Shown: piece by piece, positions 20,159 through 36,661 of the stretch
How the letters are laid out: every line of letters starts with the position of its first letter
Position numbering within the stretch: position 1 is the stretch's first letter
Assembly (NCBI GenBank): GCA_029225485.1
Contig: JAQXWO010000140.1
Location: forward strand, 1-39,597
Source of the DNA: Lachnospiraceae bacterium
GTDB taxonomy: Bacteria > Bacillota > Clostridia > Lachnospirales > Lachnospiraceae
Direction: 5' to 3'
Length of the DNA: 39,597 nucleotides
Notes under the pieces: model-generated
Database searches by the model: none
Told to the model about the DNA's origin: nothing
What the model saw: the letters and a program-made list of their open reading frames with translations, nothing else
Position numbers and translations under genes: made by a program

Positions 20159-20881
20159 ATGGAAGACAGTGTAAAGAAACTGCAGGAAATCATTTCGGAA
20201 AGCAATAATATTGTATTTTTCGGCGGCGCCGGGGTATCCACGGAGAGCGGGATCCCGGATTTCAGAAGTGTGGACGGATTGTACCATCAGAAATATGATT
20301 ACCCGCCGGAGACCATACTGAGCCATACTTTTTTTGTGAAGAATACGAAGGAATTTTACCGGTTCTACCATGACAAAATGCTCTGCCTCGATGCGAAGCC
20401 GAATGCCGCGCACCGGAAGCTGGCCGAGATGGAGGAAAAAGGAAAGCTGAAGGCAGTCATTACCCAGAATATTGACGGACTCCACCAGATGGCAGGCAGC
20501 AGGCGGGTGCTGGAACTGCACGGAAGTGTTCACCGCAATTATTGCCAGAGGTGTCATAAAGAATATGATGCCCTGTATATGAAGGAGGCGGAGGGTGTGC
20601 CCTGCTGTGTCTGCGGCGGCATCATCAAGCCGGATGTGGTTCTGTATGAGGAAGGGCTGGATATGCAGACGATGCAGGATTCCATTTCCTATATCTCAGC
20701 GGCGGAAGTACTGATCATCGGAGGCACTTCTCTGGCGGTATATCCGGCAGCGGGCCTGATCGATTATTTCAGGGGAAAACATCTGGTGGTGATCAATAAG
20801 GCGCCTACACCGAGGGACAAATATGCGGATCTGCTGGTGCAGGGAAGCATCGGGGAGATTCTGGGACAGATACAGATTTAG
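20159..20881 (+). CDS. SIR2-family NAD-dependent protein deacylase
   Basis: '[23 protein letters not shown]', '[13 protein letters not shown]', '[18 protein letters not shown]', '[17 protein letters not shown]', '[12 protein letters not shown]'. Confidence 0.95.
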
Positions 20882-20897
20882 AAGCGTTTGTGTGACT

Positions 20898-21103
20898 ACA
20901 ATGCGACGCCATCCGCTGCCCAATATCCGCGTGTGCTGCCTCCGTCCCGGACAGTCATGACAAAAATCTGCCGGTGCAGGACATAGGATGTTCTTTCCAG
21001 GCAGACATTTGCCATGACTGTCCGTTACGAGGTCAGACGCGTCGGATATGGGGCAGTGGATGGCTGTGTGTCGAATGCGGGAAAATAATTGCAGGAGTGC
21101 TGC
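20898..21103 (+). repeat. Long-hairpin intergenic repeat element, copy A
   Basis: Imperfect palindrome spanning nearly the whole interval (GCCATCCGCTGCCCAATATCCGCG... with ...CGTCGGATATGGGGCAGTGGATGGC); 31/31 identity of 20923-20953 with 32114-32144 and 35/39 identity of 21019-21057 with 32211-32249. Confidence 0.9.
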
Positions 21104-22614: not shown

Positions 22615-22658
22615 AAAGCCCTTAAAGGCGGATGATTTCGGCATTTAAGGGCTTTTTT
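22615..22658 (+). terminator. Rho-independent terminator after rpsR
   Basis: AAAGCCCTTAAA ... TTTAAGGGCTTTTTT. Confidence 0.85.
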
Positions 22659-24496: not shown

Positions 24497-24541
24497 AAAG
24501 CCCTTAAATACCGGATTTCCCGGTGTTTGAGGGCTTTTTCT
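24497..24541 (+). terminator. Rho-independent terminator after CHAP gene
   Basis: AAAGCCCTTAAATACCGG-ATTTC-CCGGTGTTTGAGGGCTTTTT: 18-bp stem with two G:U pairs. Confidence 0.85.
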
Positions 24542-31600: not shown

Positions 31601-32072
31601 TGCAGTCAGCGGCGGCCACAAGATCCTGCTGTTTTCCCAGTTTACCTCCATGCTGGAGCGGCTGCAGCAGCGCATGGAGGAGGAAAAGATCTCGTATTAT
31701 GTGCTGACCGGATCCACCAGCAAGGAGAAACGTCGGGCTCTTGTGGAAGCCTTTCAGAAGGATGATACTTCGGTATTCTGTATTTCCCTGAAGGCCGGAG
31801 GCACCGGGCTGAACCTGACGGCGGCGGATATCGTGATCCATTACGACCCCTGGTGGAATCTGGCAGTTCAGAATCAGGCCACGGACCGGGCTCACCGGAT
31901 CGGTCAGGAGAATGTGGTCAGCGTCTATAAGCTGATCACCAAGGGAACTATTGAGGAGAGCATTACAAAGCTTCAGGAGAAGAAACATGAGCTGGCTGAC
32001 CAGGTGCTGGGAAGCGGCGGGCTGGACGGCGGCAGCTTCACGAAGGAAGAGCTGCTGGAGCTGCTGAAGTAA
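28608..32072 (+). CDS. SNF2-family helicase with N-terminal SWIM zinc finger
   Basis: 'YCDCPAFYSYSGICKHCVAVALKYL' SWIM; 'GILADDMGLGKTLQVIAFL', 'LALTGTPIENRLSELWSIFDYL', 'FSQFTSMLERLQQRM', 'ISLKAGGTGLNLTAADIVIHYDPWWNLAVQNQATDRAHRIGQ'. Confidence 0.95.
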   Translation: MINRTMIRHMAGSAAFSKGEDLYLSNKIYNFSIEVDEEDDPVDCIEAQVKGSGRNRYDVMLKYDYETGSLEESYCDCPAFYSYSGICKHCVAVALKYLDYQKSHQKERQETAAGDSVPEELRRLMQALGIPTDDEDSEESQRDVFSDGFGQDKARTNTRGRGGKASRAAQAMQTTPSIQRLLTNQVSQRMSRLQSSVHEEVSLDPYLTYSYGEMHLEFKLGIKQKYVLKDVFALTRRIRNQEEYAYGQKLKFLHTIDAFTPESQKLVKFLMDWTEKNRQRFLQTTYYGYSYSSTPQELRHMPLSPSDLEDFLEAVEDREFTAQIGNTPEQMWHVTGEPVPRTMEICGKKDGIEVSVNYLSGIAGNRYYIYFQEPLIHLIPRETLEPISGFLNCMADIPDRKIRIAKEDVPLFCRELLPALEQTYECTKKNFDAEAYGVFPVSFEIYLDAPQKQFVTCKVLAVYGEKKYNVYAPTVSMASRDMIKEEEVKKVVSSYCNAYDDKEHMMVLAENEDLLYELLVHGIPRFQELGEVFVSDAIKRIRVSSAPKVSVGLSVNGDWLELQMTSEDMSREELIEILSRYNRKKKFYRLKNGDFVNMEDEGMAALLEMQKGLNLTPSQLKKEKVELPRYRALYLDGELCQSQSLPVNRNRAFRSLIRNMKTVEDNDFEIPPELEPVLREYQKRGFLWIKTLCHNGFGGILADDMGLGKTLQVIAFLVSELSGSGSSDEVSCGKEPDGRQELRRTLIVCPASLVFNWHAEFEKFAPQLSVKMVTGTAAERKEIVEQAGEQEILVTSYDLLKRDLANYEGIKFFCEVIDEAQYIKNHNTQAAKAVKEISAGFRLALTGTPIENRLSELWSIFDYLMPGFLYGYQKFREEIETPVLQHQDEAAMNRLQKMIRPFVLRRLKKEVLTDLPDKLEECIYAKMEGEQQSLYDAHVKRLRMMLDKDSEEEFNRSKIQILSELTRLRQICCDPALLFEGYQGNSSKTEVCIDLIKNAVSGGHKILLFSQFTSMLERLQQRMEEEKISYYVLTGSTSKEKRRALVEAFQKDDTSVFCISLKAGGTGLNLTAADIVIHYDPWWNLAVQNQATDRAHRIGQENVVSVYKLITKGTIEESITKLQEKKHELADQVLGSGGLDGGSFTKEELLELLK

Positions 32073-32088
32073 ATGAGAGGGGTATTTC

Positions 32089-32293
32089 ACAATGGGACGC
32101 CCTGTACTGCCGCATATCCGCGTGTGCTGCCTCCGTCCCGGACATTTGCAGAATTTGTCTGCCGGTGCAGGACGGAGATCGTCCTTCGCCGGTCAGACAG
32201 ATTCTGCAGATGTCCGTTCCGAGGTCAGACACGCCGGATATGCGGCAGTGCAGGGCTGTGTATCAAATGGGGAAAAGATGCCAGGAGTGTGCA
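32089..32293 (+). repeat. Long-hairpin intergenic repeat element, copy B
   Basis: Near-complete hairpin: GCCCTGTACTGCCGCATATCCGCGTGTGCTGCCTCCGTCCCGGACATTTGCAGAATTTGTCTGCCGGTGCAGGACG pairs with the downstream arm ending GGCAGTGCAGGGC; apical loop GGACG-GAGAT-CGTCC. Homologous to copy A. Confidence 0.9.
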
Positions 32294-35870: not shown

Positions 35871-36317
35871 ATGAAAGTAATCTTATTACAGGATGTAAAA
35901 TCAGTAGGTAAAAAAGGAGAGATCGTGGAGGTCAGCGACGGATACGCAAGAAATGTGCTGCTGCGCAAGGGGCAGGGCAAGGAAGCCACCGGGAAAAATA
36001 TGAATGACCTGAAGCTGCAGAAGGCAAATGCCGAGAAGATTGCCCAGGAGCAGCTGGAGGCGGCGAAGGCACTGGCTGAGGAGATGAAGGATAAGAAGAT
36101 CACGGTGGCAGTCAAGGTCGGAGAGGGCGGACGTGTCTTTGGTTCTGTATCCTCCAAGGAGATCGCAGAGGCGCTGAAAGCACAGCTTGGCTACGATGTA
36201 GATAAGAAGAAGATCCTGCTGGATGGCCCGATCAAGACTCTGGGCGTGACTAATGTGGGCATCAAGCTCCACACGAAGGTGACAGCAGAGATCGGTGTGC
36301 ATGTGACGGAGGCATAG
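35871..36317 (+). CDS. rplI: 50S ribosomal protein L9
   Basis: 'MKVILLQDVKSVGKKGEIVEVSDGYARNVLLRKG'. Confidence 0.96.
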   Translation: MKVILLQDVKSVGKKGEIVEVSDGYARNVLLRKGQGKEATGKNMNDLKLQKANAEKIAQEQLEAAKALAEEMKDKKITVAVKVGEGGRVFGSVSSKEIAEALKAQLGYDVDKKKILLDGPIKTLGVTNVGIKLHTKVTAEIGVHVTEA

Positions 36318-36326
36318 CTTCTGTTT

Positions 36327-36546
36327 CATTGAGAGGACGCCGTAGTCAGGGGCAGGGAGCCCTGTGGAAAACAGAGGGGCAGGACTCCGACGAACTAACT
36401 GCCAACTGCGACCAGCGCCGCTCAGGAGAGCCTTCGCGCCGGGTCTGCGTAAGCAGTGGATTTCGTCTCCGTCCTGAACGCCCCTGCGGAGAATATTTTC
36501 CACCGGGTTCCCTGCCCCTGACTGCGGCTGTATTTCGATGAAGCGG
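36327..36546 (+). repeat. Long-hairpin intergenic repeat element, copy C (divergent interior)
   Basis: GCCGTAGTCAGGGGCAGGGA (36339-36358) pairs with TCCCTGCCCCTGACTGCGGC (36509-36528), 19/20 plus one G:U; inner arms also complementary (CTGTGGAAAA/TTTTCCAC; AGGACTCCGACGAA/TTCGTCTCCGTCCT). Ends GGACGCC and GGCTGTATTTCGATG match copies A and B. Confidence 0.75.
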
Positions 36547-36661
36547 AGTCAATACTGCTTAATATGGACGCCTCTGTATCCGGATGAAGGATATCTGCTT
36601 GTTTTGCAGATTGGCTCTGAACAATTACGATTATTCTATTATATCAAAGGAGGTCTTCCTC

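Follow-up and report, generated by a model that had tools for sequence, protein, structure and literature searches.

Within the 39,597-nt stretch of Lachnospiraceae DNA analysed here (hereafter the window), two similar sequences follow shortly after the stop codons of a SIR2 gene and of a SNF2-type helicase gene, and each folds into a long hairpin. Their unusual trait is that in each copy the pairing of this hairpin survives changes of sequence, which raises the question of what kind of element is present and what preserves its fold. The evidence assembled below makes it highly probable that the two sequences, copies A and B, belong to a non-autonomous MITE of ISBst12-type IS66 elements that was moved in trans, with the pairing of its arms kept largely by template switching and its conserved blocks kept by selection. 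There is good support for classing them among the MITEs of ISBst12-type IS66 elements. The mechanism of maintenance is observed in part (retained pairing, strand symmetry and visible corrections), and we infer the remainder.

Two homologous hairpins and their copies in the host genome

Copies A (20898-21103) and B (32089-32293) had been described in the first-pass annotation as homologous hairpins with matching changes in their arms, and this observation was borne out for hairpins of about 165 nt. The identities given for three blocks (31/31, 16/16 and 35/39) were reproduced, and each copy folded as one long hairpin, with RNA folds of -115 kcal/mol for A (z -9.5) and -137 kcal/mol for B (z -12.1); none of 200 shuffles was equally stable, and copy A folded with DNA parameters gave a z of -10.0. 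The proposed pair swap, C20921-G21051 in A for G32112-C32243 in B, is a real pair in the folds of both copies. The heads had been placed 17 bp after a stop codon; both start 16 nt past the last base of the stop, the SIR2 gene ending at 20881 and the SNF2-type helicase gene at 32072. Although the homologous stretches are real, their borders need widening to take in decayed terminal repeats, which places copy A at about 20890-21092 and copy B at about 32081-32284, each 8 nt past the stop codon. The position of the left end of A is fixed not only by alignment but also by 8-bp duplications at the same offset in five other copies, and leftover similarity across decayed copies at this end exceeds background. 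Copies A and B are themselves too decayed to display a target duplication. Their parts are as follows:

20890..20904, + strand: left end of copy A, a decayed terminal inverted repeat with consensus GTTACTGTTCAGAGC (alignment to intact copies)
20905..21067, + strand: hairpin core of copy A, 66 pairs in the single-sequence fold (covariance model, 158 bits; fold)
20923..20953, + strand: conserved 5' block of copy A with ATATCC spacer, GTGCTGCCTCCGTCCCGGAC (near-invariant columns, 26-57 copies)
20967..20982, + strand: conserved apical 5' block of copy A, TCTGCCGGTGCAGGAC (conserved columns, fold)
21019..21057, + strand: conserved 3' block of copy A (GTCCGTTNCGAGGTCAGAC ... GGATAT) with fixed bulges (conserved columns)
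21068..21092, + strand: right end of copy A, decayed, consensus TTTTCAAATACCTGTGAACAGTAAC (alignment of copies)
32081..32095, + strand: left end of copy B, a decayed terminal inverted repeat (alignment, residual signal)
32096..32259, + strand: hairpin core of copy B, 70 pairs in the single-sequence fold (covariance model, 162 bits; fold)
32260..32284, + strand: right end of copy B, decayed (alignment, residual signal)

Many further copies are present in the host genome. BLASTN located at least 40, and a covariance model built from 26 copies recovered, across the 2.78-Mb MAG (92% complete, 293 contigs), about 60 of full length and about 12 that are shortened or partial; the family thus numbers about 65-70 small, gene-less copies in this gut-type bacterial genome. 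The A/B hairpin was not found in the 97 relatives searched. Among 46 congeners the covariance model found no copy, apart from a weak 31-bit match in one of them (G023:C3, L140:420-565), and 397 genomes of the family yielded nothing beyond a 44-nt partial match in G194. Plasmids and phages gave no copies, nor did exact-pattern scans of GTDB and viral contigs, a set that possibly does not include records of the host species. As the closest congeners are only ~82% identical to the host at the SIR2 gene, a family that appears species-specific may still be considerably old. The gap between the SIR2 and DUF951 genes in congeners is devoid of the hairpin and too divergent for the empty site to be aligned.

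Terminal repeats and the partner transposon

When all copies with flanks were compared, similarity was found to run 15 nt to the left and 25 nt to the right beyond the core and then to end, giving complete copies of ~205 bp with no transposase gene inside. The left end of intact copies reads GTTACTGTTCAGAGC and the right end TTTTCAAATACCTGTGAACAGTAAC, which gives an 11-bp terminal inverted repeat, GTTACTGTTCA (terminal repeats GTTACTGTTCAGAG / TGAACAGTAAC); the TTTTC that follows the stem is conserved, and the right end reads TTTTCRAAT...TGAACAGTAAC. In five copies an offset scan identified 8-bp direct repeats (at least 7/8) that abut these ends exactly on the outer side, two of them perfect (CTTTCTTG and CTGTTTAG), and the chance of five duplications at the predicted offsets is about 1e-9. 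Near-consensus ends are rare (10 left and 8 right, of 65 copies); as copies with decayed ends keep a residual match to the terminal repeat at the same offsets, all copies were probably complete once. Isolated matches of 14 nt to this repeat, GTTACTGTTCAGRG, also occur in the host at C2:14010, C106:8567 and C117:8942 with no hairpin or partner end nearby, that in C2 overlapping the end of a fabD-like gene.

The same kind of end is found on complete insertion sequences in relatives. One congener (G015) has a complete IS of 2267 bp that encodes a 520-aa transposase (PF03050 above cut-off) between GTTACTATTCAC ends, with the duplication AAAATAGT on each side, and in another (G007) an IS66-like gene fragment is followed by GTTACTGTTCACACG. 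Among 20 related IS loci in GTDB contigs, most of those with both ends covered have GTTACTRTTCAC ends; perfect 8-bp duplications flank the ISs at L210 and L216 (TTTTATTC on both sides of the latter), and the IS at L220 has exactly GTTACTGTTCACAGC. Overall, the complete ISs of relatives combine the terminal repeat GTTACTRTTCACAG with 8-bp duplications, matching the ends of the hairpin family. We take these partner ISs to be of the ISBst12 subgroup, an assignment accompanied by IS66 profile matches; the NF033517 profile scored 140 bits on the partner transposase, under its cut-off of 180. The mobile palindromic repeat, one of two readings offered in the first-pass annotation, is accordingly right, as judged by the many copies, the terminal repeats, the 8-bp duplications and the matching transposon group.

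An ISBst12-type transposase was not found in the host MAG, and the driver is therefore deduced from relatives; as the MAG is split into 293 contigs and its completeness is 92%, a repeated IS could have escaped assembly. The two ordinary IS66 elements of the host genome were considered as the driver and rejected, their loci being without these ends. The element follows a MITE plan of a terminal inverted repeat, an interior formed by a 165-nt nested quasi-palindrome, and a right end. Its copies would have been mobilised in trans by a DDE transposase of the ISBst12 type that the assembly now lacks and that cut at the GTTAC ends.

Mobility of another kind was also considered, in which the hairpin itself is the substrate of a hairpin-guided, single-strand transposition of the REPIN/RAYT type or other. 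A long conserved hairpin with conserved asymmetric bulges, and the lack of intact terminal repeats in most copies, would be in keeping with such a process, but the 8-bp duplications and IS66-matching ends fit a DDE transposase. In addition, no RAYT was found in the host MAG (92% complete), where the sole Y1-type protein (PF01797) is an IS200-like TnpA with no hairpin copy at its locus; this TnpA being the only candidate, a RAYT/REPIN identity is disfavoured and hairpin-guided transposition in general is regarded as very improbable.

Pairing, conserved blocks and the siting of copies

The covariation between arms claimed from copies A and B is real and far beyond both shuffled and slid controls. 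With 55 copies aligned to the covariance model, standard pairs occupied 95.5% of cells, two-sided changes numbered 376 as against 92 +/- 9 in shuffles, and covariation was 0.339 compared to 0.130 when shuffled and no more than 0.089 in slid controls, where the paired share fell to 29-44%; these are upper estimates, given that the copies were aligned to fit the structure and that cells are not independent events, but the gap is still large. Mean pairwise identity was 0.91 for the blocks, 0.62 for the arms and 0.31-0.36 for the ends. The arms hence vary yet stay complementary, the ends with the inverted repeats are now scarcely more alike than by chance, and the unpaired positions of the asymmetric bulges are mostly 0.88-1.0 conserved. 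Gene conversion among copies was rejected as the origin of the conserved blocks, as the arms between the blocks differ. The outer blocks (GTGCTGCC..GGAC / GTCC..GGTCAGAC) resemble the apical ones (GTCTGCC..GGAC / GTCC..GGTCAGAC), a likeness in sequence that suggests nested duplication of one module.

Several features bear on how the arms remain paired. Wobble and A-C mismatch cells were near-equal in number, 121 G-U as against 100 A-C (p = 0.18), with no difference by orientation (57:48 in sense and 21:21 in antisense copies), a symmetry that selection on one strand of RNA would not give. In two copies (L083 and L132), the apical mismatch or bulge has been rewritten as a near-perfect palindrome, an arm copying that is consistent with template switching. 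Closely related copies often differ by the sudden loss of one end, and most shortened copies are without the apex, which fits the expectation for hairpin deletions. Arm pairing may thus be held largely at the DNA level through template switching at the hairpin during replication. Template switching would, however, erase bulges; the persistence of bulges and blocks therefore calls for a different cause, most simply selection, which would act for mobilisation or for a role in place.

The parity of G-U and A-C counts is compatible with template switching and also with selection on a DNA cruciform. The covariation might instead reflect selection for a cruciform or an extruded hairpin whose conserved blocks are recognised by a protein, and the strand symmetry of the mismatches together with the strong conservation of blocks and bulges amid variable arms would be expected of such a structure. 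No protein that binds it is known, though, and corrections like those in L083 and L132 would yield the same arm pattern by template switching; we consider selection for a cruciform a possible but less likely basis for the covariation.

The siting of the copies bears on whether the hairpin acts in place. By heuristic gene calls, 22 sense and 17 antisense copies lie in co-directional gaps, 15 in divergent gaps and one in a convergent gap. For genes on the same strand that end at the left side of the element, the stop lies between -17 and +16 nt from it in 22 of 29, compared to 3 of 19 for the opposite orientation (Fisher p = 8e-5), and stop-adjacent copies were 22 sense versus 3 antisense (p = 2e-4). 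Start codons are mostly tens to about a hundred nt away. Most copies are intergenic and leave promoters intact, many of them lying just past a stop codon, and, because the elements stay clear of start codons, avoidance of promoters would explain much of the proximity to stops. The bias in orientation is the best hint of a role in place.

It is this bias, in combination with retention of the core blocks and bulges while the terminal repeats decay and with conservation of TTTTC 3' of the stem, that recommends the hairpin as a functional structured RNA or as a 3'-end or terminator element composed of a stem and short U tract after stops. Nevertheless, G-U is not preferred over A-C in either orientation, and a wobble signature following the direction of transcription was rejected, none being seen. 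The T tract averaged 3.67 T of 5 in stop-adjacent sense copies and 3.56 elsewhere; it is kept no better in the former, and selection for a terminator in sense copies was rejected on this basis. Many copies are divergent or antisense, and MITEs of other genera lie near stops in both orientations, so that promoter avoidance can explain their siting. A search of Rfam returned no family at the gathering cut-off for the A/B hairpins, the weak matches to miRNA hairpins being far below it. With G-U about equal to A-C and symmetric between strands, covariation alone does not make the hairpin an RNA; the structured RNA that the first-pass annotation had offered as its second reading is unsupported as such, and a function of this kind in place appears unlikely.

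Other members of the class and comparison with known systems

The copy C named in the first-pass annotation is taken to be a third hairpin of the window:

36321..36556, + strand: copy C, a second type of hairpin MITE, its end module (GACGCC ... GGCTGTATTTCGA) enclosing a different interior (fold z -10.6)

Located between rplI (stop at 36317) and dnaB, copy C (about 36321-36556) has its end module in common with A and B, but its interior is of a different type, to which the A/B covariance model gave only 13.8 bits. This interior recurs in the host genome at L069:1335-1421, L071:1734-1883, L087:4096-4165 and L292:6438-6524. The second type is characterised by the end module GACGCC...GGCTGTATTTC, a conserved interior of its own and complementary arms that vary by copy; the ends of one full copy at another site of this genome read GTTATTGTTCACAC ... 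TATGAACAGTAAC. Tiny hairpins with GTGACGCCCCG...CGGGGCTGTGTTTC or close variants occupy the right flanks of copies in L069, L072 and L092, and are probably deletion derivatives of the second type. Also within the window, 22615-22657 and 24497-24539 are similar hairpins (AAAGCCCTTAAA...AAGGGCTTT) with T runs that flank one gene and look like ordinary intrinsic terminators.

When the ends were sought at a spacing of 160-190 nt, elements turned up in 18 of 394 genomes, as against none with a reversed-pattern control, and 22 of the 44 elements read carry 8-bp duplications at 7/8 or better. In most, the terminal repeats close a three-hairpin junction, and the arms of the first hairpin, complementary but variable from copy to copy, enclose a loop like GTCGTGCTTGCACGTAAG; one example folded with a z of -13.8. 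These three-hairpin MITEs are about 185-200 bp, many with perfect 8-bp duplications, and they occur in other genera of the Lachnospirales (L232-L237, L240-L247 and L252-L273). The MAFFT alignment of the class was poor, and a consensus fold from it unreliable. A further six loci (L231, L249, L250 and L251, all in G230, as well as L230 and L239) bear the same terminal repeats on other folded interiors, several with perfect 8-bp duplications. Since the same ends thus occur on different folded interiors, one transposon group carries several of them. It is conceivable, and proposed here only tentatively, that ISBst12-type elements gave rise, throughout the Lachnospirales, to a wide class of structured MITEs in which folded DNA or RNA would be recognised by a protein for mobilisation or after exaptation by the host. 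The copies would then come in several folds, the arms perhaps diversifying while complementarity, loops and bulges stay.

An Rfam scan of 17 loci of this wider class gave no match inside the element, and full-text searches of open-licence papers turned up nothing on MITEs based on IS66 or ISBst12, nor on the sequences described here; IS66 also goes unmentioned in a review of prokaryotic MITEs from 2024 (PMC10969869). Genome annotation therefore probably misses the three-hairpin elements. In the A/B family, one genome offers an alignment of about 55 natural copies of a long hairpin at full length, their blocks conserved, their bulges fixed and their arms free to change, and these allow a direct test of whether compensatory changes arise by structural selection or by template switching, a question asked for RNA genes (PMC8794818). 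The family also serves as a warning that strong covariation is possible in mobile DNA without an RNA function.

Among known systems, the bacterial MITEs ERIC (RU-1), YPAL (RU-2), Correia (NEMIS) and RUP are ~100-200 bp and mainly intergenic, with terminal repeats and target duplications, and their transcripts would fold into long stem-loops (PMC2229807). The A/B family is like them in size, intergenic siting, terminal repeats, duplications and stem-loop folding. The review describes TA-ended elements for most of them and names a matching IS for RUP alone (IS630-Spn1) (PMC2229807); by that description, the GTTAC ends, 8-bp duplication and IS66-type partner set the present family apart. REPINs are likewise palindromic repeats dispersed in one genome (PMC3116915), but the 8-bp duplications and IS66-type ends seen here point to a DDE transposase, and a RAYT was not found. 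Multi-base compensatory changes in stems are shared with the hairpins maintained by template switching, which were described in RNA genes (PMC8794818), whereas the A/B hairpin belongs to a mobile DNA element with fixed bulges. With the ISBst12/IS66 elements themselves, the family has the terminal repeat GTTACTRTTCACAG and the 8-bp duplication in common, and several of the partner ISs have subterminal hairpins at their right ends; it differs from them as a MITE without a transposase, the nested-hairpin interior of which is unrelated to the transposase gene.
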